Source: Frankiaceae bacterium (lineage in GTDB: Bacteria; Actinomycetota; Actinomycetes; Frankiales; Frankiaceae). From it: a DNA stretch of 11,035 bases. The DNA is taken from contig JAVEDQ010000082.1 in assembly GCA_030840885.1 (NCBI GenBank), positions 1-11,035 on the forward strand, written 5' to 3'. The notes under the pieces were generated by a model. It saw nothing but the letters and a program-made list of their open reading frames with translations. It was not told where the DNA came from and ran no database searches. The position numbers and the translations under genes were made by a program. This document shows, piece after piece, positions 267 through 9,743 of this stretch (positions are counted from its first letter, which is position 1; each line of letters opens with the position of its first letter).

Positions 267-881
267 ATGAAGGTGCCGACCGAGACGGACGTGTCGCAGG
301 ACTGGGTCATCACGAGCCTCGCCCCCGAGTTCCGACTGCTCGACGTCTGGGCGCTGCCCGCGGAGGGCGACGCGGCGGATTTCGACGATCTGGTCAGCCT
401 GATGAGTCGCTTCGACCCTGCTCGGTCCGAATCCGGTCTGACGCGCCTGCTGTTCCAGGTCCGATTCCGCCTCGGGGGTCTCCTGGGTTGGGACGACGAG
501 GTCAGCGCGCGCCCGATCCCCGGCTCGACGCAGACGTCGTTGCGGGAACGGCTACCCAGCGACCTCCGCGGCAGCGCCGACGTCGGGCAAATCGGGGACG
601 GGCAGCGCAAGGTCGGCGTCGGGTTCACGCCGGTGTACCGGACCGACCGGGAGTGGGCGGCGGAGCTGTCCAACGCGACGGTCCACGGCGTCCTGCACCT
701 GGGCTGGGTGCCGCGACCCGACGGTCGATACCGCGGTCAGCTGGGTGTGTGGGTGGCGCCGCGCGGCCTGCTCGGCGAGGCGTACCTGCGACTGATCGAA
801 CCGTTCCGACGCTTCGTCGTCTATCCGGCGATGATGCGGCAGGTGGAGCGGATGTGGGCGGCTCGCGGTCACGTCGGCTGA
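267..881 (+). CDS. DUF2867 domain-containing protein
   Basis: This 204-residue protein of unknown biochemical function covers essentially one DUF2867 domain. Family-like segments are the middle RFRLGGLLGWDD, then SLRERLPSDLR, VYRTDREWAAELSNATVHGVLHLGW and the C-terminal PFRRFVVYPAMMRQVERMW. No signal peptide or convincing membrane span is seen, so it is probably cytoplasmic. The ATG at 267 is chosen because GAGG lies 7 bp before it; the frame stays open further upstream, but only through the divergent regulator's coding sequence and operator. As the divergent partner of a TetR gene it is probably the regulator's target. It converges with the HNH gene across a 97-bp gap. Confidence 0.8.
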   Translation: MKVPTETDVSQDWVITSLAPEFRLLDVWALPAEGDAADFDDLVSLMSRFDPARSESGLTRLLFQVRFRLGGLLGWDDEVSARPIPGSTQTSLRERLPSDLRGSADVGQIGDGQRKVGVGFTPVYRTDREWAAELSNATVHGVLHLGWVPRPDGRYRGQLGVWVAPRGLLGEAYLRLIEPFRRFVVYPAMMRQVERMWAARGHVG

Positions 882-978: not shown

Positions 979-2337
979 TCAGCCGGTGCCGTCGAGCGGC
1001 GGTTGGCTGTCGGCCTGGTCCTTGCCGGGCCAGCCGATGTCGTACTCGAAGCGGTAGAGCGGTTGGTCGGGTCGGGTGCGTTTCTCGATGCGGAGGACAC
1101 CGGGTGCGGTGACGACGACGGTCCAGCGGCCGCTGTGGGCGGCGGTGTGGTGGTGGGGGCAGAGCAGGCCGAGGGTGTCGGCGTTCGTGGGGCCGCCATC
1201 GGCCCAGAACCACAGGTGGTGGGCGTGGCACCAGCGGGCGGGCATGCTGCATGACGGCCAGATGCAATGCCCGTCCCGGGCAACGACGAAGCTGCGCAGG
1301 TGGGCAGGCACGTCGCGGCTGGTGCGGCCGACGTCGAAGGGCTTGCTCCCGCGGGTGAAGACCGGGGTGACGGCGCCGTCGCAGACCAGGCGTCGGGCGG
1401 TGGAGACGCCGATCGGGCCGGTCCAGGACAGCCGCGGTCGGACAGGCGTCGTACCGGCTCGCTCGGCGTCGAGCCGCTCGGTGACGGTCCGGATCAGCTG
1501 GGCGCGTTCTTCGGATGAGAGTCGGGTCAGCGGGCTGCCGGCCCGGGTGGGGTCGTGCTCGGCGAGCTGCGCTCCGACGGTGAGACTGTCGAGGCCGACG
1601 ATGAGGTTCACGTGCGGCTTCTGCCCGCCGTCTTCGGGCAGTGCGCCGGAATCGAGCAGCAGGTCCAGCGCCTGTTCCAATGCGTCGGCCTTACGTTGGT
1701 TCGGCAACCGCAGCTCGCCGGCGGCGTCCGGCCGGGACGCCGCGGACAGCGCGGACTGCAGCTTCTCCCCGACCTCGGGCGTGAGCCGGCCGGAGACGAC
1801 GGTCATGCCGTTGAAGCCAGTCGTGACCGACAGCCGCCGGGCCTCGCGCTGGGTCTCGTCCTTCGGTTTCGGGGTCGGTAGCAGTGCTTCGGCCAGCCTG
1901 CGGAGGTAGTCCCCGAGCTCCCGTGCCGTCATCGACGGCGCCGCCGTCGCGAGCGGCGCGTCGACATCGGCCCACAGCTCTTCGGGCAACAGCCGGAGCC
2001 CGGCGACCACCGCCTGCCAGTGCGCGAAGCTGATCCGCCCCGCTTGCCAGCACGCGGCCAGCTCCGGCAGCTGCTCTTGGGCGCGGGCCACCCGCGTCTG
2101 CGCCGCCGTCTGCCCGTGGCTCATCGTCGTCTGCGTCCGTAGCCACGCGCCGACGGTCACCTGCTCGTCCGCCCAGCCGTCGGTGCGGGCGAAGGCAGCC
2201 AGCCGACGTGCGATCTGCGCCTCCAGCGCGTCGCGCACCTGGTACAGCGAGCAGATTTCGTCACCCAACGCCGCCGGAGCCACCGAGACGTCCGCTGCCG
2301 CCAACTCTGCAACCGCCGCAGACAATCTCTCGAACAT
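979..2337 (-). CDS. DUF222 / 13E12-repeat-family protein with C-terminal HNH endonuclease domain
   Basis: The 452-residue protein has the standard layout of the actinobacterial 13E12 family: a helical DUF222 region (about 25-330) and a C-terminal HNH nuclease fold (about 345-402). The HNH core is intact: RDGHC 354-358, a second Cys at 363, HAHHL 371-375, Asn385 in PTNADTLGLLC, and CPHHH 393-397. That gives a Cys4-type zinc site and the His/Asn/His metal-finger residues, so it looks like an active metal-dependent DNA nuclease. The family is multicopy in many actinobacteria and its role is not settled. Some M. tuberculosis 13E12 members are known LexA targets, and this gene has a perfect LexA-type palindrome over its start. 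ATG 2337 is the only usable start, since an in-frame TAG lies eight codons upstream. No Shine-Dalgarno precedes it, which fits a leaderless mRNA. Confidence 0.9.
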   Translation of the reverse strand: MFERLSAAVAELAAADVSVAPAALGDEICSLYQVRDALEAQIARRLAAFARTDGWADEQVTVGAWLRTQTTMSHGQTAAQTRVARAQEQLPELAACWQAGRISFAHWQAVVAGLRLLPEELWADVDAPLATAAPSMTARELGDYLRRLAEALLPTPKPKDETQREARRLSVTTGFNGMTVVSGRLTPEVGEKLQSALSAASRPDAAGELRLPNQRKADALEQALDLLLDSGALPEDGGQKPHVNLIVGLDSLTVGAQLAEHDPTRAGSPLTRLSSEERAQLIRTVTERLDAERAGTTPVRPRLSWTGPIGVSTARRLVCDGAVTPVFTRGSKPFDVGRTSRDVPAHLRSFVVARDGHCIWPSCSMPARWCHAHHLWFWADGGPTNADTLGLLCPHHHTAAHSGRWTVVVTAPGVLRIEKRTRPDQPLYRFEYDIGWPGKDQADSQPPLDGTG

Positions 2338-3021: not shown

Positions 3022-3819
3022 TCAGGCCGTCAGATGTGCCGCCAGCAATTGGCGGGCGCGGTGGCGGTCGGTCCAGAAGACCCCGCCGGCTTGCAGCACG
3101 TGCAGCGACGCCTGTGGCAGCGCCTCGGCGAGCGTGCGCGCGGTGGCGACGGTGTGGAGGTCGTCCTCCTCCTGCGCCAGCACCAGGCTCGGCACCTCGA
3201 TCGTGCGCAGCGCCGCGAGCGACTCGATCGGGCGGACGGCGCCCCGGGGTGAGGGCGGCTCGGTGAAGGCCAGTTGCCGAGCCCGCCGGGCGGTGAGCAC
3301 CTGCGCCGCCCGGGTCGCCCGCAGCGACGGCGGCACCTCGAGCAGCAGCAGTTCCTGCAGCCGGCTCAGGTCGCCGATCCGCATCGCTGTCGCGAGCCGG
3401 TCGAGCCGCGCCGTCGCGCCGTCGGCACGCGCCCGGTCCAGTGCGGCCGGCAGCACGAACGCCACCCGTCCGAACCGGGCGGGCGTCGCGATGAGCAGCC
3501 GCAACAGGGCACCCGCACCGAGCGAGAGACCCAGCGCGCGGGTGGCGCCGACGGCGTCGGCCACGCGGCGGAGGTCGTCGGCCAGCACGTCGTAGTCCCA
3601 CCCGTCGTCGAGCGGGTCGGAGTCGCCGTGGCCGCGGAAATGCAGCAGCACCCGCGTCCCGCTCAGACCCGCGGCGAGCGGCCGTGTCTCCGCCGTCGAG
3701 CCGCCTAGCCCGTGCGCGAGAACCGTCACGGGCTCGCCGCACCCCAGGACGACGAACTCGACTCCACCGACCCGGCCGGAGGAAGGCAGCGTGCCTGCTG
3801 TCGTCACAGAGTCATTCAC
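3022..3819 (-). CDS. Alpha/beta hydrolase, last gene of the fab operon, catalytic His position altered
   Basis: The 265-residue protein has the alpha/beta-hydrolase fold: oxyanion-hole HGLGG (36-40), RGHGDSD (62-68) and the nucleophile elbow GLSLG with Ser99, then an acid candidate in QEEDDLH (Asp219/Asp220). Where the family normally has the catalytic His before the last helix (AGHxxW), this protein reads QAGGVFWTDRHRAR, with Gly246 at that place. Other His residues (222, 241, 253) are near but not at the canonical position. The GTG at 3819-3817 overlaps the accD TGA by four bases, so translation is probably coupled and the product probably works with the fatty-acid genes, perhaps as an acyl thioesterase or lipase-like protein (inference). 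No signal peptide is seen. Substrate cannot be told from sequence. Confidence 0.8.
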   Translation of the reverse strand: MNDSVTTAGTLPSSGRVGGVEFVVLGCGEPVTVLAHGLGGSTAETRPLAAGLSGTRVLLHFRGHGDSDPLDDGWDYDVLADDLRRVADAVGATRALGLSLGAGALLRLLIATPARFGRVAFVLPAALDRARADGATARLDRLATAMRIGDLSRLQELLLLEVPPSLRATRAAQVLTARRARQLAFTEPPSPRGAVRPIESLAALRTIEVPSLVLAQEEDDLHTVATARTLAEALPQASLHVLQAGGVFWTDRHRARQLLAAHLTA

Positions 3820-5231
3820 AGCGGGATGTTGCTCTGCCGACCCCGTACGGGCTCGGTCGCCAGCAGGGCGTGCGCGACGGCGGCGCGGGTGCGGGAGGGT
3901 TCGAGCACCTCGTCGATGAAACCCTCGTCCACCGCGACCGCCAAGCCGCCGGTGACCTCGGCGTGTTCGGCGGCGAACAGCTCCTCGGCCGCCGTCTTCT
4001 CGGCGCCCTCGAGTCCGGCGAGGTCGCGGCGACGCAGGATGCGCACCGCCGAGACGGGGTTCATGACGTCGACCTCGGCGTCGGGCCAGGCGAAGGCGCG
4101 TGTCGCCCCCAACGATCGGCTGTTCATGGCGATGTAGGCACCGCCGAACGCGCGTCGCAACACGACGCTGACCCGCGGCACGCTGGCGCCGGCGAACGCG
4201 TGCAGCAGCTTCGCACCCCGGCGCAGGATGCCCTCACTCTCCTGGGCTGCACCGGGCAGATAGCCCGGGACGTCGACGAGCACGAGCAGCGGGATGCCGA
4301 AGGCGTCGCACAACCGGACGAAGCGCGCGGCCTTGTCCGAGGCCGGGCCGGTCAGACAACCGAAGTCGCGGGCCGGGTTGTTCGCAACGACGCCGACCGT
4401 CTGGCCACGCAGGCGACCGAGCAGCGTGACGACGTTGGCCGACCACTCGGCCTGCAGCTCCTCGCCGGGCCCGTCGAGCACCGCCGCGATGACCGGATGG
4501 ATGTCGTAGACCCGCTTGCGCTGCTGCGGCAGGAACAAGGCGGGGTCAGGGCGGGTCGCCTCGTCGGGTGCGGCAGCCACGCGCCGAGCGAGCAGCGCTG
4601 TGATGCGACGGGTGCGCTCCACCGCGTCCTCGTCGTCGGAGGTGGTCACGTGGGCGACGCCGGAGGTGGGCCCGTGCATACCCGGGCCGCCGAGTTGCTC
4701 GGCGGTGAGGTCCTCGCCGGTGACGGAACGGACGACGTCCGGACCGGTCACGAACACCCGCGCGTCCGGGGTGAGCACGACGACGTCGGTCAGCGCGGGG
4801 CCGTAGGCGGCACCGCCCGCGGCCGGCCCGACGACGAGGCTCACCTGCGGTATGCGACCGCTGGCCCGGGTCATCGCGGAGAAGACCTGCCCCACCGCGT
4901 GCAGGGAGCGGGCACCCTCCTTCAGCCGGGCGCCGCCCGAGTGCCACACGCCCACGATCGGCAGGTCGAGGTCGAGCGCGCGCTCGTAGGCGTCGACGAT
5001 CAAGGCGCACCCCTGCTCGCCGAGCGCACCCCCCTGCGTCCGCGGGTCGGTCGCGAACACCACGGCACGGGTCCCGTCGAGGCGACCGAAGCCCCACGCC
5101 GCGCCGTCGCAGACGTCGGAGACCGTCAACGTAGCCGGTTCGGCGAGGCACGCGAGCCGGACGACCGGGTCGCGGTCGTCGAGGCGCGGGGCCGCACCGG
5201 TCGCCGTCGTGTCGTCGAGGACGCTGGTCAC
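3816..5231 (-). CDS. accD6: Acyl-CoA carboxylase carboxyltransferase (beta) subunit, AccD6-like
   Basis: The 471-residue carboxyltransferase transfers CO2 from biotin to acetyl-CoA (or propionyl-CoA) to make malonyl- or methylmalonyl-CoA, with a biotinylated alpha subunit encoded elsewhere. Two crotonase-like halves are seen. The N-half has WHSGGARLKEG (96-106) and the oxyanion region GPAAGGAAYGPALTD (135-149). The C-half has NNPARDFGCL, the DVPGYLPG run (320-327) and FGGAYIAMNSRSLG (362-375). Length, order and the C-terminal NIPL agree closely with mycobacterial AccD6, which sits in the fabD-acpM-kasA-kasB-accD6 operon. The GTG start (5231-5229) overlaps the fabF TGA (5230-5228), and its own TGA overlaps the hydrolase GTG. 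The name rests on remembered similarity; another short-chain acyl-CoA carboxylase beta subunit remains possible. Confidence 0.9.
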   Translation of the reverse strand: MTSVLDDTTATGAAPRLDDRDPVVRLACLAEPATLTVSDVCDGAAWGFGRLDGTRAVVFATDPRTQGGALGEQGCALIVDAYERALDLDLPIVGVWHSGGARLKEGARSLHAVGQVFSAMTRASGRIPQVSLVVGPAAGGAAYGPALTDVVVLTPDARVFVTGPDVVRSVTGEDLTAEQLGGPGMHGPTSGVAHVTTSDDEDAVERTRRITALLARRVAAAPDEATRPDPALFLPQQRKRVYDIHPVIAAVLDGPGEELQAEWSANVVTLLGRLRGQTVGVVANNPARDFGCLTGPASDKAARFVRLCDAFGIPLLVLVDVPGYLPGAAQESEGILRRGAKLLHAFAGASVPRVSVVLRRAFGGAYIAMNSRSLGATRAFAWPDAEVDVMNPVSAVRILRRRDLAGLEGAEKTAAEELFAAEHAEVTGGLAVAVDEGFIDEVLEPSRTRAAVAHALLATEPVRGRQSNIPL

Positions 5232-6493
5232 GCTCCGACTCCCTCGGCTCCGGTCCAGCTGCGGAAGGCGAGCGCGGTGTTGTGGCCGCCGAACCCGAAC
5301 GACGTCGAGAGGGCGACGCCGGGGGAGGGCAGCGGGCGGGGCTCGAAGCGGACGACGTCGAGGTCGACGTCATCGTCGGGGTCGTCGAGGTTGCGGGTGG
5401 GCGGGGCCAGCCGGTGCTCGAGGGCGAGCACCGTCAGTAGGGCCTCCAGACCGCCGGCCGCACCGAGCAGGTGGCCGGTGGCCGACTTCGTGGCGCTGAC
5501 CGGAATCGACAGCACGGCGTCCCCGAGTGCGGCGTGCAGGGCCTTGACCTCAGCGAGGTCGCCGAGCGGCGTGCTGGTGGCGTGCGGGTTGATGTGCACG
5601 ACCTCGTCGGCGGCGGCACCGGCGTCGCTCATCGCGAATGCGACCGCACGTCCGGCGCCGGCACCCTCGGGGTCGGGAGCCGCGATGTGGTGGGCGTCGG
5701 ACGTCAGTCCTGCGCCCGCGAGCTCCGCATAGATCTGTGCCCCGCGGGCGGCCGCCGACGAAGCACGCTCGAGCACGAGCACCCCGGCACCCTCGCCGAG
5801 CACGAACCCGTCCCGGCCTTTGTCGAACGGACGGGATGCCGCACCCGGTTCGTCGTTGCGGGTCGACAACGCCCGCATGGCCGCGAACCCGGCCATGGGA
5901 AGCGGATGGATCGCCGCCTCCGTGCCGCCGCAGACCACGACGTCGGCGCGACCGAGCCGCAGCAGGTCGAGGCCCATCGCGATCGACTCCGCACCGGACG
6001 CGCAGGCGCTCACCGGTGCGTGGGTCCCGGCTCGGGCGCCGAGCTCCAGGGCGACGACGGCGGCCGACCCGTTGGGCATCAGCATCGGAACCGTGTGCGG
6101 GCCGACGGCACGAGCGCCCTTGGCGGTCAGGGTGTCGTGGGCGTCGAGCAAAGTGGTGACGCCACCGATGCCGGAGGCGACGACGACCGCGAGCCGCTCG
6201 GGCTCGACCTGCGGGCACCCGGCGTCGGCCCAGGCTTCGCGGGCGGCGACGAGCGCGAGCTGCTGCGAGCGGTCGAGCTTGCGGACGGCGACGCGGCCGA
6301 GGACCTCGGCGGGGTCCACGGCGGCCGGTGCGGCGATGCGTACCGGCAGTTGCTCGGCCCACGGCCGGTCGAGGGCACGTGCCCCGGAGTGGCCGGCGAG
6401 CAACGCCTCCCACGTCGTGGACGCGTCGCCGCCGAGTGGGGTGGTGGCGCCGAGGCCGGTCACGACGATCGGCTCGGCAAGGGGTGTGGGCAT
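5228..6493 (-). CDS. fabF: Beta-ketoacyl-ACP synthase II (FabF/KasA type)
   Basis: The 421-residue condensing enzyme elongates acyl chains by decarboxylating malonyl-ACP onto an enzyme-bound acyl group. The catalytic set is complete: Cys164 in VSACASGAES, His304 in NPHATSTPLGD, Lys336 and His341 in SATKSATGHLLGAAGG. The C-terminal gating segment STSFGFGGHN is also typical. RPFDKGRDGFVLGEGAGVLVLE (221-242) is a strong family signature. ATG 6493 is chosen because AGGAG stands 5 bp before it and the KAS fold begins at once (VVTGLGATTPLGGD). The open frame further upstream is spacer and fabH tail. It follows fabH by 67 bp and runs into accD through a GTGA overlap. Confidence 0.95.
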   Translation of the reverse strand: MPTPLAEPIVVTGLGATTPLGGDASTTWEALLAGHSGARALDRPWAEQLPVRIAAPAAVDPAEVLGRVAVRKLDRSQQLALVAAREAWADAGCPQVEPERLAVVVASGIGGVTTLLDAHDTLTAKGARAVGPHTVPMLMPNGSAAVVALELGARAGTHAPVSACASGAESIAMGLDLLRLGRADVVVCGGTEAAIHPLPMAGFAAMRALSTRNDEPGAASRPFDKGRDGFVLGEGAGVLVLERASSAAARGAQIYAELAGAGLTSDAHHIAAPDPEGAGAGRAVAFAMSDAGAAADEVVHINPHATSTPLGDLAEVKALHAALGDAVLSIPVSATKSATGHLLGAAGGLEALLTVLALEHRLAPPTRNLDDPDDDVDLDVVRFEPRPLPSPGVALSTSFGFGGHNTALAFRSWTGAEGVGA

Positions 6494-6507
6494 GGGCTCT
6501 CCTAGAT

Positions 6508-6533
6508 GGGAGGCGGGCTGCGGGAGGCGGGCT
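6508..6533. repeat. Short tandem repeat in the fabH-fabF spacer
   Basis: GGGAGGCGGGCT occurs at 6508-6519 and again at 6522-6533 (14-bp period), followed by a degenerate GGGATTCGGGG. It fills much of the 67-bp gap between the fabH stop and the fabF ribosome-binding site, the position usually held by acpP in actinobacterial fab operons. Confidence 0.7.
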
Positions 6534-6560
6534 TCGGGATTCGGGGGAAGAGGTGCGGCG

Positions 6561-7538
6561 TCAGGGTGCGAGGACGACCTGGCCGGCCCAGGACAGTCCG
6601 GCACCGAAGGCGACGAGCAGCACCGGGTCCCCGGTCGCGATCCGCCCGGCGTCGGCCAGTGCCGCCAGGGCGAGCGGGACACTCGCCGAGGAGGTGTTAC
6701 CGCTGGTGCGGACGTCGTCGGCGACGACCGTGCTCTCGGGGAGTCCGAGCTGGCGGACGACGGCGTCGACGATGCGCTGGTTCGCTTGGTGCGGCACGAA
6801 CGCGGCGAGGTCCGCCGGCTCGATCCCTGCCTGGGCGCAGGCGTCGCGGGCGACCTGGGCGACCGACGAGGTCGCCCAGCGGAAGACCGCCGAACCGTCC
6901 ATCGAGATCTGACGCTCGAAGTCGGCGACGCGGATGAGGTCGCGGCCGGATCCGTCGCTGCCCCACACCGCCGGCCCGATGCCGTTCTCGGACCGGGCGC
7001 AGGCGGTCAGCACAGCAGCGCCGGCGCCGTCGCCGAACAGGATGGCGGTGTTGCGGTCGGACCAGTCGATCCAGTCGGTCATCCGCTCGGCCCCGACGAC
7101 GACGGCGGTTCGGGCCGATCCGCTGCGCAGCGCGGAGTCGGCGAGGCCGAGGGCGTAGCAGAAGCCGGCACAGGCGGCGTTGACGTCGAGCGCCCCGCCG
7201 CGGAGACCGAGCCGCTCGGCGACCGTCGGCGCGATGCCGGGAACCGGTGACGGCAACGAGCAGCTGGCGATGAGCAGCAGGTCGACCTCGGCCGGGTCGA
7301 CGCCGGCGGCGGCGATGGCCTTGGCGGTGGCCCGGGTGGCGAGGTCGGCCACCGATTCACCCTCGCCGGCGACGTGCCGGGTCTCGATGCCGGTGCGCGA
7401 CCGGATCCAGTCGTCGGTGGCGCCGACGGTGGCGGGCAGGTCGGCGTTGGCCACGACGTGCCGGGGGCGTTCACCGGCCACGGCGAGCAACCGGGAACCC
7501 CCGTGCGGCGGCAGGGGCTGGCCCGACGTCGTCGGCAT
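6561..7538 (-). CDS. fabH: Beta-ketoacyl-ACP synthase III (FabH)
   Basis: The 325-residue thiolase-fold enzyme starts fatty-acid chains by condensing an acyl-CoA primer with malonyl-ACP. The catalytic triad is complete: Cys123 in NAACAGF, His250 in VPHQANQRI and Asn281 in TSGNTSSASVP. DDWIRSRTGIETRH (42-55) is the usual primer-pocket segment, and the C-terminal LLVAFGAGLSWAG is diagnostic of FabH. The start is uncertain. ATG 7538 gives the usual family length, with the fold starting at SRLLAVAGERP. ATG 7565 and GTG 7568 are also in frame, and the frame remains open to a TTG at 7652, but none has a convincing Shine-Dalgarno. It is the first gene of the minus-strand fab operon and divergent from the thioesterase. 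Confidence 0.92.
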   Translation of the reverse strand: MPTTSGQPLPPHGGSRLLAVAGERPRHVVANADLPATVGATDDWIRSRTGIETRHVAGEGESVADLATRATAKAIAAAGVDPAEVDLLLIASCSLPSPVPGIAPTVAERLGLRGGALDVNAACAGFCYALGLADSALRSGSARTAVVVGAERMTDWIDWSDRNTAILFGDGAGAAVLTACARSENGIGPAVWGSDGSGRDLIRVADFERQISMDGSAVFRWATSSVAQVARDACAQAGIEPADLAAFVPHQANQRIVDAVVRQLGLPESTVVADDVRTSGNTSSASVPLALAALADAGRIATGDPVLLVAFGAGLSWAGQVVLAP

Positions 7539-7804
7539 CTCGCGCTGGAGCGCGTCGCGAAGCATCACAGGTCGAGCCTGCTCGGCCGAAGCCGCTGCGT
7601 CGCACCTCCTCGGTAACGAGAACCAGACGGCGCTTTTGGCGCTTTCCTCCAACGGCGCGGTTGGCGAACAGCAACACCGTGCCAGTCAGGGATGGGCCGG
7701 TTGTCGAGTTACGTCAACGTCCCCTGTGTCCGGGGGTAGGCCATAGGCTCGGCTCCTGCGACGGCCGACGACGCGAGGCCGGCTTCTCGGGAGGGACGGC
7801 CAGG
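7539..7804. promoter_or_regulatory. Divergent control region between fabH and the thioesterase gene
   Basis: This 266-bp region must hold the promoters of both the fab operon and the thioesterase gene. On the minus strand a good -35 (TTGACG, near 7712-7717) is seen, but no convincing -10 lies 16-18 bp downstream. On the plus strand TAGGCT (7744-7749) fits a TANNNT -10 without a good -35. A direct repeat of GGCGCTTT lies near 7638-7645 with a partial copy just before it. No fabD, acpP or regulator gene lies here. Confidence 0.35.
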
Positions 7805-8221
7805 GTGGGTGTACTGGACATGAGCGGTGGGCTCGACGGAACGCTGGGTGTCGAGGTGCTCGAGGCTTCGGCGGACCGCGTCGTGCTCGGCGCCGCCATC
7901 GCGCCACAGCTGTTGCAGCCCTACGGCATCGTCCACGGCGGGGTGTACTGCTCGATGGTCGAGTCGGCCGCGAGTATCGGCGCCGCGCTCTGGTTCGGCG
8001 ACCGCGGCAACGTCGTCGGCGTCGCCAACTCCACCAACTTCCTCCGCGCCGCGCGCGAAGGACGGCTGACGGCGACCGCCGAGCCGATTCACCGCGGCCG
8101 CACGCAGCAGCTGTGGCGGGTGACCATCACCGGCGTTGACGACCGCATGCTCGCCGTCGGCGAGGTGCGGCTCGCCAACATCGCCGATGCCCAGGTGCTC
8201 GGCGCTCCCGCCCAGGGCTAA
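7805..8221 (+). CDS. PaaI-family hotdog-fold acyl-CoA thioesterase
   Basis: The 138-residue protein is one hotdog domain. The family signature YGIVHGGVYCSMVESAAS (about residues 40-57) contains the HGG loop and the Glu at the start of the long helix that serves as the catalytic carboxylate. A beta sheet with NSTNFLRAAREGRLTATAEPIHRGR follows. Such enzymes hydrolyse acyl- or aryl-CoA thioesters in the cytoplasm, usually as tetramers. GTG 7805 is preferred because GAGGGA ends 8 bp before it; ATG 7820 is the alternative and would remove five residues. It is divergent from fabH, which suggests a linked role in releasing or recycling acyl-CoA, but the natural substrate is unknown. It converges with the small-gene cluster, leaving only 7 bp between stop codons. 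Confidence 0.85.
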   Translation: MGVLDMSGGLDGTLGVEVLEASADRVVLGAAIAPQLLQPYGIVHGGVYCSMVESAASIGAALWFGDRGNVVGVANSTNFLRAAREGRLTATAEPIHRGRTQQLWRVTITGVDDRMLAVGEVRLANIADAQVLGAPAQG

Positions 8222-8228
8222 CCGCGAC

Positions 8229-8324
8229 TCAGCGACGGAGTAACGCGATGAGCACCAGCGTCACGAGCACGGACACCAGAAGCGATCCAAGGCATCCGAG
8301 CCGGTTCGAGAAAAAGAAGAACAT
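8229..8324 (-). CDS. 31-residue hydrophobic single-pass microprotein (third gene of small cluster)
   Basis: The ORF begins MFFFFSNRLGCLG, continues as an uninterrupted hydrophobic helix (about residues 12-29, Leu/Val rich) and ends with Arg-Arg. A strong AGGAG five bases before the ATG makes translation likely; that Shine-Dalgarno overlaps the stop codon of the preceding 44-residue ORF. The predicted topology is one membrane helix with a positive C-terminal end. Similar very short actinobacterial proteins with an SNRLGCLGS-like N-terminus are recalled but have no known function; this needs a search. The stop lies 7 bp from the stop of the convergent thioesterase gene. Confidence 0.7.
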   Translation of the reverse strand: MFFFFSNRLGCLGSLLVSVLVTLVLIALLRR

Positions 8325-8331
8325 GGTGCTC

Positions 8332-8466
8332 CTAGTAGTAGTAGTTCTGACGGCGCTGGGCCCGGCGGCGTAGGACGCGCCTCAGCACCAGACCGAGCAG
8401 CATGCCGCCCAGGCCTCCGCCGCGGACGACCACGCCCCGGCGGCCTCCGAGAAAGACTCGTGCCAC
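8332..8466 (-). CDS. 44-residue strongly cationic Gly/Arg-rich microprotein (second gene of small cluster)
   Basis: The frame starts at GTG 8466 (V/M-ARVFLGGRRGVVVRG), has a Gly-rich hydrophobic middle (GGGLGGMLLGLVL, about 16-28), then an Arg-rich stretch (RRVLRRRAQRRQ) and ends NYYY. It has 11 Arg and no Asp or Glu, so it is very basic. It could sit at the membrane or bind nucleic acid or acidic lipid; no family is recognised. The GTG follows the preceding ORF's TGA by two codons in the same frame, so reinitiation or coupling is plausible. A (TAG)4 microsatellite covers its last Tyr codons and stop. The Shine-Dalgarno is weak, so the start is less certain than those of its neighbours. Confidence 0.55.
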   Translation of the reverse strand: MARVFLGGRRGVVVRGGGLGGMLLGLVLRRVLRRRAQRRQNYYY

Positions 8467-8472
8467 AGGTGC

Positions 8473-8541
8473 TCAGCTCTCGTATTTGTCCGGGCTTGCC
8501 GCGTCCTGCGTGCGGATCGGTCCCTGATCGGTGGTCGTCAT
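8473..8541 (-). CDS. 22-residue polar microprotein (first gene of small cluster)
   Basis: The ATG at 8541 is preceded by GAGGGAGAAAC, a strong Shine-Dalgarno. The product begins MTTTDQGPIR and ends SPDKYES; it is polar, mildly acidic and has no hydrophobic segment. It may be a real microprotein or a leader peptide whose translation controls the downstream small genes. It lies in the same frame as the 44-residue ORF, separated by TGA plus two codons. No similarity is recognised. Confidence 0.5.
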   Translation of the reverse strand: MTTTDQGPIRTQDAASPDKYES

Positions 8542-8593
8542 GTTTCTCCCTCGAGGGTTGGAGACGACCGACTGCTTTGCCGTCAATTACCGC

Positions 8594-8607
8594 GCTTCAC
8601 ATGAAGC
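8594..8607. repeat. Inverted repeat GCTTCA-CA-TGAAGC in the small-cluster leader
   Basis: Six-base perfect arms flank two central bases. A further CGC/GCG pair extends the symmetry past a one-base bulge (8591-8611). It lies about 55 bp upstream of the first small ORF, so it could be an operator or an RNA hairpin in the leader. Confidence 0.4.
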
Positions 8608-8742
8608 AGCGGTGTTGAAAAGAATCCCCGAGGGCGTTAATCCCAAACTCTGCACCCGAGGGGAAGGCACTTACAACGACCTGACTACAAGCGCCGGACT
8701 GCTGGCAAGAACACTTCACGTGATCTGCAATACATAAAGCGG

Positions 8743-8756
8743 CCGCGAGGACGCGG
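8743..8756 (-). terminator. Candidate terminator of the ctaG-like gene
   Basis: On the minus strand, just after the TAA stop, CCGCG-TCCT-CGCGG forms a 5-bp GC stem with a 4-base loop. After four bases a T-rich stretch TTTATGTATT follows. The stem is short, so efficiency is uncertain. Confidence 0.4.
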
Positions 8757-8762
8757 GTGCAT

Positions 8763-9743
8763 TTAGCGGCGCGGCCGGAAATCTGCGGCCCGGTTGGCGC
8801 CGAACACGCGCGCATCGGTCTCCCACCACGGCCGGTCCGTCGCCGGGACCTCCTGCCCCGCCGCAGGAGGATCCCCGGCGACCGGACCGGCCTCGCCTTC
8901 TGCAGCCCCGGGGGCGGCGGCGTCGAGTCGGGCGTCGATGAGGGCGGCCTCCCGCTGGTCGGCCCGGATCCACTGCAGGACGATCAGAGCCAGGAATGGA
9001 AGGTCGACGACCTCGGCGACGATCCAGAGGATCGATCCACCGTCCTGCTGGTCGATCAGCGGCGGCGGGCCCCAGGGCCGGTGGAGCCCGGCGTAGAACG
9101 TGGTCAGCAGCGTCGATTGCAGTCGCAGGACGATGCCGGGGACGGCGTCGGCGAGCAGCTCGAAGAAGCCGACGAAGGCGGCGAGGGCGACCGCGAGCGA
9201 TGTCCGCGGCGCCGCATCGCCGATCAGCGGCAGTGCGAACACGAGCCCGGCGGCGAGCAGGACCAGGCGCACCGCTGCCCCGACGGCGGAGGACCGTAGC
9301 GAGGCGTCGAGAACCGGGGTGAAGAACAGCAGGAACGTCAGGACCGGCAGGGCAGCCGGGCCGAGCAGGGGATTGGCCAGCAGCGCGACGATGCGCCCAC
9401 GCGCAGGCCGCCCCCGGACTGCCGCGAGTAACTCCAGCGGCCGGCCGACGGCGATCAGCAGCGGCGCCCCTACCAGGAGCACCAGGGCCTGGACCGTGTA
9501 CATCCAGAACAGCACGCGGGCGTAGACCCCGACGCCGCCGGCCGTCGCCACCAGCACCGAGAGCAGGCCGAGGAGCAGAGCCAGCGTCCGACCGATCGGC
9601 CATGCGTCGCCCCGGCGACGCAGCACGACGACCCCCGCCGCGTAGAGCGAGGCCGCGACGAGCACGACGACGCCGGCGACGTCCGGCCGCCAATGGGCGA
9701 GGAGTGCGCCGGTGGTGACGGGGGGAACGGCGGGGTTCACCAC
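8763..9743 (-). CDS. CtaG-family (cytochrome c oxidase assembly type) multi-pass membrane protein, paired His missing
   Basis: The 326-residue protein has about seven predicted membrane helices (roughly 23-41, 52-70, 77-100, 129-148, 157-175, 182-200, 235-258) and a polar, acidic and Pro/Ala-rich cytoplasmic tail. HRPWGPPPLIDQQDGGSILW (221-240) is the conserved C-terminal signature of the caa3-CtaG family, whose members help insert copper into cytochrome oxidase. In helix 3, where the family has HMxQH before PPLL, this protein reads YTVQALVLLVGAPLL, so both histidines are gone. Function may therefore differ. GTG 9743 is chosen because AGGA lies 7 bp before it; GTG 9740 is the next codon and equally possible. 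It is divergent from the ABC exporter genes, 62 bp apart, with no oxidase genes in view. Confidence 0.8.
   Translation of the reverse strand: MVNPAVPPVTTGALLAHWRPDVAGVVVLVAASLYAAGVVVLRRRGDAWPIGRTLALLLGLLSVLVATAGGVGVYARVLFWMYTVQALVLLVGAPLLIAVGRPLELLAAVRGRPARGRIVALLANPLLGPAALPVLTFLLFFTPVLDASLRSSAVGAAVRLVLLAAGLVFALPLIGDAAPRTSLAVALAAFVGFFELLADAVPGIVLRLQSTLLTTFYAGLHRPWGPPPLIDQQDGGSILWIVAEVVDLPFLALIVLQWIRADQREAALIDARLDAAAPGAAEGEAGPVAGDPPAAGQEVPATDRPWWETDARVFGANRAADFRPRR

Follow-up and report, generated by a model that had tools for sequence, protein, structure and literature searches.

An unnamed, conserved family of predicted single-helix membrane microproteins, found through a cluster of three small ORFs in a Frankiaceae contig

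Results

Organization of the locus

The window, i.e. the whole stretch of 11,035 nucleotides that was analyzed, is an entire contig of a Frankiaceae genome that is 63% complete. It carries three consecutive small ORFs on the minus strand (Table 1). Their positions and their lengths of 22, 44 and 31 residues, as given in an earlier note on this DNA, were verified on the sequence, and so were the span of 313 bp and the inter-ORF gaps of 6 and 7 bp. The strong Shine-Dalgarno sites that had been noted before ORF1 and ORF3 were located as GGGAG and AGGAG, the latter lying over the stop codon of ORF2, whereas a clear site is absent before ORF2. The ATG of ORF1 is internal to a 37-aa frame with a TTG start. 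ORF2 is indeed very basic, with 11 Arg and neither Asp nor Glu. The upstream neighbor, on the same strand and 221 bp before ORF1, is a ctaG-like gene; downstream of ORF3 lies a convergent gene for a 4HBT-type thioesterase.

Table 1. Features of the small-ORF cluster and its flanks in the window
Feature	Position	Strand	Description	Basis
ORF1	8473..8541	-	22-aa polar peptide MTTTDQGPIRTQDAASPDKYES; no relatives in fetched loci; candidate coding sequence	
ORF2	8332..8466	-	basic peptide of 44 aa, rich in Arg and Gly, with GTG as start codon; no relatives found; coding plausible	
ORF3	8229..8324	-	31-aa predicted single-pass membrane microprotein MFFFFSNRLGCLGSLLVSVLVTLVLIALLRR; unnamed cross-phylum family	
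ORF3 Shine-Dalgarno AGGAG	8329..8333	-	overlaps ORF2 stop TAG (8332-8334)	sequence
ORF1 Shine-Dalgarno GGGAG	8546-8550	-		sequence
Candidate SigB/SigF-type promoter GTTT-N15-GGGGA	8625..8648	-	83 nt ahead of ORF1 start	
ctaG-like gene (Caa3_CtaG, PF09678)	8763..9740 (start approximate)	-		Pfam E 3.6e-48
4HBT-type thioesterase gene (PF03061)	7820..8221 (start codon assumed)	+		Pfam E 9.3e-18

The GC content at third codon positions is 0.82 in ORF1, 0.82 in ORF2 and 0.77 in ORF3, and the values over the three codon positions of ORF2 (0.84/0.50/0.82) resemble those of ctaG (0.81/0.52/0.88). Moreover, the packing of the trio exceeds the chance expectation under criteria that were chosen post hoc. 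A qualifying set had to consist of three ORFs, each 20-60 codons long and separated by 0-15 bp, with two or more Shine-Dalgarno sites; the real strand of the 541-bp stretch 8222-8762 contains one such set, against none in 300 dinucleotide shuffles.

Elsewhere in the window, a fatty-acid-type gene set (3022-7652, minus strand) is oriented divergently from the thioesterase gene and includes, according to Pfam, a FabH-like and a FabF-like protein, an acyl-CoA carboxylase carboxyltransferase and an alpha/beta hydrolase. Pfam further identified a DUF222 protein (979-2337, minus strand), which we take to be 13E12/HNH-endonuclease-like, and a DUF2867 protein (267-881, plus strand). No tRNA or RNA element was found in the window, Rfam included.

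ORF1 and ORF2 look local, whereas ORF3 is conserved

Of the three frames ORF3 is the only one that is demonstrably conserved. Neither ORF1 nor ORF2 has a relative in the 109 fetched ORF3 loci, which represent at most 104 distinct places as five places came from both collections (best E 4 and 2.9, respectively). Among 29 ctaG-anchored loci of the window's family nothing rose above noise for either frame, the best E for ORF1 being 0.11. For ORF2, none of 32 candidates from a set of 5.8 billion proteins gave a score. Matches to ORF2 at E up to 1 were found in 29 of 35 genomes of the family, its own included, mostly as stretches within long frames and with a best non-self E of 0.004. The idea of a conserved ORF2 family was rejected because, with the threshold set to E <= 0.001, the 295 other class genomes contained no match. 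Thus, both frames look local to the window's genome. Since their composition by codon position is coding-like, they may nevertheless be genuine genes restricted to this lineage, or leader peptides.

These findings bear on the proposal in the earlier note that the trio forms one co-translated unit with a joint membrane-linked role. The tight packing unmatched in 300 shuffles, the overlap of the ORF3 ribosome-binding site with the ORF2 stop and the coding-like third-position GC of all three ORFs speak for it, and the packing fits co-transcription. However, in the fetched loci ORF3 stands without ORF1 and ORF2, and ORF2 is unmatched across the class in a set of genomes that includes no close ORF3-bearing relative of the window's genus. 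The joint role is not supported by these data, short of a strict refutation, and we regard the co-translated unit as improbable. The accompanying claim of overlooked microproteins applies to ORF3, for which substitutions by codon position demonstrate coding (see below); ORF1 and ORF2 are candidate coding sequences.

The ORF3 frame is under purifying selection

ORF3 relatives are about 30-40 residues long and share the core FFSNRLGCxGSxxxSxxxT, followed by a hydrophobic tail. The codon-conservation check proposed in the earlier note came out clearly for ORF3: pN/pS is 0.14 in Microvirga, 0.14 in Bradyrhizobium, 0.31 in Micromonospora, 0.36 in Nocardioides and 0.11 in Myxococcus, and 0.33 for the ORF3 of the window versus 107 others, whereas shifted frames gave 0.78-6.27. 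Within the five genera third positions take most of the substitutions. In line with this, the DNA identity within genera is 0.79-0.88 over the first 78 bases of the frame but drops to 0.31-0.54 across the 20 bases that precede it, to 0.28-0.41 beyond these and to 0.30-0.32 on the downstream side. The frame is therefore under purifying selection, and a chance ORF is excluded by the pN/pS values and by the drop in identity outside the frame.

Across the 95 distinct sequences compared, G10 and S14 are invariant (95/95), C11 and S18 are present in 94 and T22 in 89. F2, F5 and R8 are equally constant, although partly by construction because residues 1-9 were in the search pattern for named genomes; a copy found by profile (L148) has Lys at position 8. 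Position 13, a Gly in the core, is variable among relatives. The N-terminus is short and aromatic (MF-x-FF-S-N-R), with a basic residue at position 8, and the ORF3 of the window carries G10, C11, S14, S18 and T22 behind an aromatic [SN][NS][RK] start.

The single membrane helix that had been read from the sequence of ORF3 was recovered in a structure prediction, which places a helix at residues 8-30 (mean pLDDT 81.5, pTM 0.42). Owing to their four-residue spacing, G10-xxx-S14-xxx-S18-xxx-T22 would line a single face of this predicted helix. Small residues spaced by four on one face constitute a pattern that packs helices together. The topology is ambiguous because 51 of the 95 sequences have Lys or Arg near the C-terminus as well.

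The family has no name in the resources that were consulted. ORF3 matched no family of Pfam, NCBIfam or PHROGs at E up to 1, its profile matched no PDB chain at E up to 10, and a literature search with its motif strings found no paper. Among the matches listed in a descriptive literature search, no title or abstract start fits the family.

Distribution of the ORF3 family

Matches to ORF3 were present in 38 of the 393 genomes of the class, its own genome included. Within the window's family, the other 34 genomes lack a convincing copy. In named genomes 149 of 275 candidate stretches encode relatives, 80 of which were fetched and all entered the upstream counts below. According to the record titles, by which loci were grouped and of which a few are doubtful, these belong to Actinomycetota, Alphaproteobacteria (Bradyrhizobium, Microvirga, Methylobacterium and relatives of Rhizobium), Noviherbaspirillum, Myxococcus and an Eremiobacterota MAG. 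One locus titled 'Bacillus sp. AZ43' (L134), flagged unverified, was grouped with Actinomycetota. Two of the 29 loci L034-L062 did not enter later counts, namely L062 and L049, the start of the latter being unclear.

Profile searches per phylum, whose counts include the centre genome each time, yielded matches in 13 of 346 genomes of the window's phylum (10 strong, 3 weak and partial only), in 7 of 398 genomes of the phylum of a Bradyrhizobium (Pseudomonadota), in 33 of 146 genomes of the phylum of a Myxococcus (Myxococcota) and in 12 of 148 genomes of the phylum of the Eremiobacterota MAG. In the seven Pseudomonadota genomes the match is full and uninterrupted in four, partial in two and interrupted by an in-frame TAG in one. 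A later reading of individual loci covered 19 of 20, L211 being left out; nine of those read came from the search of the Eremiobacterota phylum. Every positive genome has one match, except for one Actinomycetota genome (G608) with two. The distribution of the family is therefore patchy, with few members in Pseudomonadota and none that is convincing in the window's own family. When a 40-residue member was used as query, just two proteins were recovered from the 5.8-billion set.

Several individual copies deserve mention. The interrupted copy (L161, Pseudomonadota genome G930) has its TAG near the start and is probably decaying. In genome G608 one match (L152) keeps roughly residues 1-22, with unrelated sequence thereafter, and the second match is partial. 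The neighboring genes of L069, titled Comamonas sp. KCTC 72670, cluster with those of Myxococcus loci, and the record label or the assembly looks wrong. Two contigs of the IMG/VR viral collection (L194 and L195) encode relatives, for which prophage cargo and mislabelled host DNA are candidate explanations; in L194 a Trp replaces the conserved Cys11. A tblastn search of plasmids and phages with ORF3 gave no match, a result made uninformative by the low-complexity filter.

ORF3 has no fixed genomic neighbor

The synteny comparison proposed together with the conservation test gave a divided outcome: ORF3 is widely conserved, but ORF1 and ORF2 are unmatched and the neighbors of ORF3 are mostly bound to a genus. 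Indeed, the genes next to ORF3 change across genera, and only two of the 25 listed neighbor clusters (first eight members shown per cluster) mix genera. From 41 of the 80 fetched relatives 81 nearest-gene proteins were obtained, cut at 400 residues, and 80 were scanned after one L083 entry was dropped; the most frequent Pfam families occur in 3 of the 80. Rho domains were counted in three of these proteins, one of which could be traced, to locus L087. By tblastn this protein matched L034 as well as L087 and L039, which are one and the same place, and by phmmer over the 80 proteins it matched L087 alone, whereas a motif check for Rho among the neighbor proteins found none, L087 included. By eye, a neighbor in L066 is MscS-like and one in L074 is esterase-like. 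As no partner recurs across genera, genomic context was discarded as a clue to function.

The same data weigh on the possibility that ORF3 is an accessory subunit of a conserved membrane complex whose main genes are elsewhere in the genome. Such subunits are well known, CydX and KdpF being small accessory subunits of membrane complexes. Another one, CcoM, is described as a 36-aa subunit (PMC10433244). ORF3 resembles the three in size and in having one hydrophobic helix. That C11 and one face of the helix are strongly conserved would suit a subunit, as would the single copy, the small-residue packing pattern and the ctaG neighbor in the window. Unlike subunits of this type, ORF3 lacks both a neighbor that recurs across genera and a match to a solved chain, and its patchy distribution also argues against such a role, which we consider possible but rather doubtful.

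A putative stress-type promoter box precedes many actinobacterial ORF3 genes

Among all 5- and 6-mers, GGGTA is the most enriched within 25 bases upstream of ORF3 starts in Actinomycetota. It occurs in 19 of 52 loci, versus 12 of 884 equally long upstream windows, and starts at -15 or -16 in every case. The form GGG[ACT]A, which was widened from GGGTA after the data and the published consensus had been seen, is present at -15/-16 in 32 of the 61 Actinomycetota loci left after dereplication and absent there in 29. The corresponding counts are 28 of 2745 for control positions and 3 of 203 for the starts of flanking genes (taken as mechanical ORF starts). The 61 loci include the nine stronger ones from the phylum search (L144-L152) and exclude the weak partial ones. 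Near-identical upstream stretches had been removed before counting, but loci of one genus share ancestry and the box counts are partly non-independent. Shine-Dalgarno sites show the opposite pattern, being found in 4 of the 32 loci with the box versus 19 of the 29 without it.

The box is accompanied by a putative -35 element. A G..T (GNNT) located 14-16 bp upstream of the box is found in 17 of the 32 loci, where shuffling gave a mean of 4.9 and 0 of 2000 shuffles reached the observed number. In the first 19 GGGTA loci it is found in 7 (P 0.019), and none of four stricter -35 patterns was significant in these 19. The -35 element thus appears loose by sequence. Outside Actinomycetota the box is present in 1 of 40 alphaproteobacterial loci and, at -14, in 1 of 9 others; in the search of the Eremiobacterota phylum it was at -15/-16 in 2 of the 9 loci read.

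This arrangement resembles that of known stress promoters. In the -10 element of SigB-type promoters of S. coelicolor GGG is described as near-invariant, likewise the A at position five, and for one group of promoters a less conserved -35 GNNT is given (PMC8346170). The mycobacterial SigF promoter is given as GGWWT-N16-17-GGGTAY (PMC7693655). The 32 Actinomycetota loci with the box share this -10 element, and 17 of them also the GNNT -35, with the regulons of the SigB homologues of S. coelicolor and of mycobacterial SigF. These are regulons and not protein families, and the putative membership of ORF3 is assigned from sequence, with a loose -35. Judged in this way, at most about one half of the loci from Actinomycetota have a SigB/SigF-like layout. 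In leaderless genes the box is near the start codon and the transcript begins at or beside the start (PMC3160421). Because the box of the ORF3 genes is this close to the start codon, leaderless mRNAs would be expected.

The ORF3 of the window is of the kind led by a Shine-Dalgarno site. Ahead of the cluster the window contains its single GTTT-N15-GGGGA, a weak match to a pattern picked after being seen, with a mean of 0.17 expected on both strands and at least one occurrence in 29 of 200 shuffled windows. As a candidate stress promoter of the cluster it is suggestive only.

Discussion

The explanation that we favor, with some reserve, is that ORF3 is a stress-induced single-pass membrane microprotein whose helix packs via the G10-S14-S18-T22 face. 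A SigB/SigF-type promoter would abut the start codon in roughly every second locus from Actinomycetota and give rise to a leaderless mRNA; most of the loci without the box have a Shine-Dalgarno site. The product would insert into the membrane as one helix, predicted at about residues 8-30, and the G10-S14-S18-T22 face may pack on a second copy or on a conserved membrane partner. In this way the protein could adjust the partner or the membrane under osmotic, oxidative or stationary-phase stress. In the window ORF3 lies behind two small ORFs, probably within a short operon that has a candidate stress promoter of its own.

A small hydrophobic peptide that is made under stress and acts on the membrane could also be a type I-like toxin. 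The size of ORF3, its single predicted helix and the stress-type promoter are compatible with this. Toxins of this kind are fast-changing and multi-copy, though, whereas ORF3 is nearly always represented by one match per genome and its core is strongly conserved across phyla, making a toxic function unlikely.

Among the systems known to us, the closest functional analogue of the proposed stress-induced microprotein would be Prli42. Prli42 is a protein of some 30 residues with a single membrane helix. It is described as a membrane miniprotein of Listeria and Firmicutes that ties the stressosome protein RsbR1 to the membrane, and its loss as causing little change in stress resistance (PMC9840623). 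The two are alike in size, in the one helix and in the link to the SigB general stress response, and are likened here by function only. They differ in that the link is a protein partner in the case of Prli42 and a putative promoter in the case of ORF3, and in that the conservation described for Prli42 is within Firmicutes, whereas the one Bacillus-titled locus of ORF3 is flagged unverified in its record.

Small membrane proteins are themselves a known kind, and what sets the ORF3 family apart is that it is unnamed, unusually conserved and broadly spread. The GMSC catalogue is reported to contain multi-phylum smORF families without Pfam annotation (PMC11364881). ORF3 is likewise multi-phylum, small and unannotated, and may correspond to an unnamed cluster of that catalogue, a likeness that goes by description only. 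The remark in the earlier note that genes of this size are easily missed was borne out for ORF3, and the family provides annotators with a new profile. If the stress reading is true, a gene too short for routine callers would be a common stress part in the soil bacteria of several phyla. In addition, the conserved core makes it straightforward to test what a membrane helix can do on its own. More speculatively, one may think of a stress helix shared by soil bacteria, expressed leaderless via stress sigma factors in Actinomycetota, which assembles with itself via the G-S-S-T face or clamps one conserved membrane machine and in which Cys11 serves as a redox switch at the membrane edge; we put this forward as a tentative extension.

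In Alphaproteobacteria general-stress promoters of the EcfG type follow the consensus GGAAC-N15-18-[CG]GTT. In this strict form the consensus was found in 0 of 32 dereplicated alphaproteobacterial ORF3 loci, and by sequence the link to stress therefore leans on Actinomycetota. The form GGAA[CT]-N15-18-[CG]GT[TA] is present in 3 of the 32 loci (0.58 in shuffles), and GGAAC-N15-18-NTT, a pattern loosened post hoc, in 9 (0.93 in shuffles). Six Bradyrhizobium loci (L085, L088, L109, L113, L116 and L125) share the block GGAACGCT...TTA near -57, and this block about 50-60 bases upstream of ORF3 is possibly a promoter of another kind.
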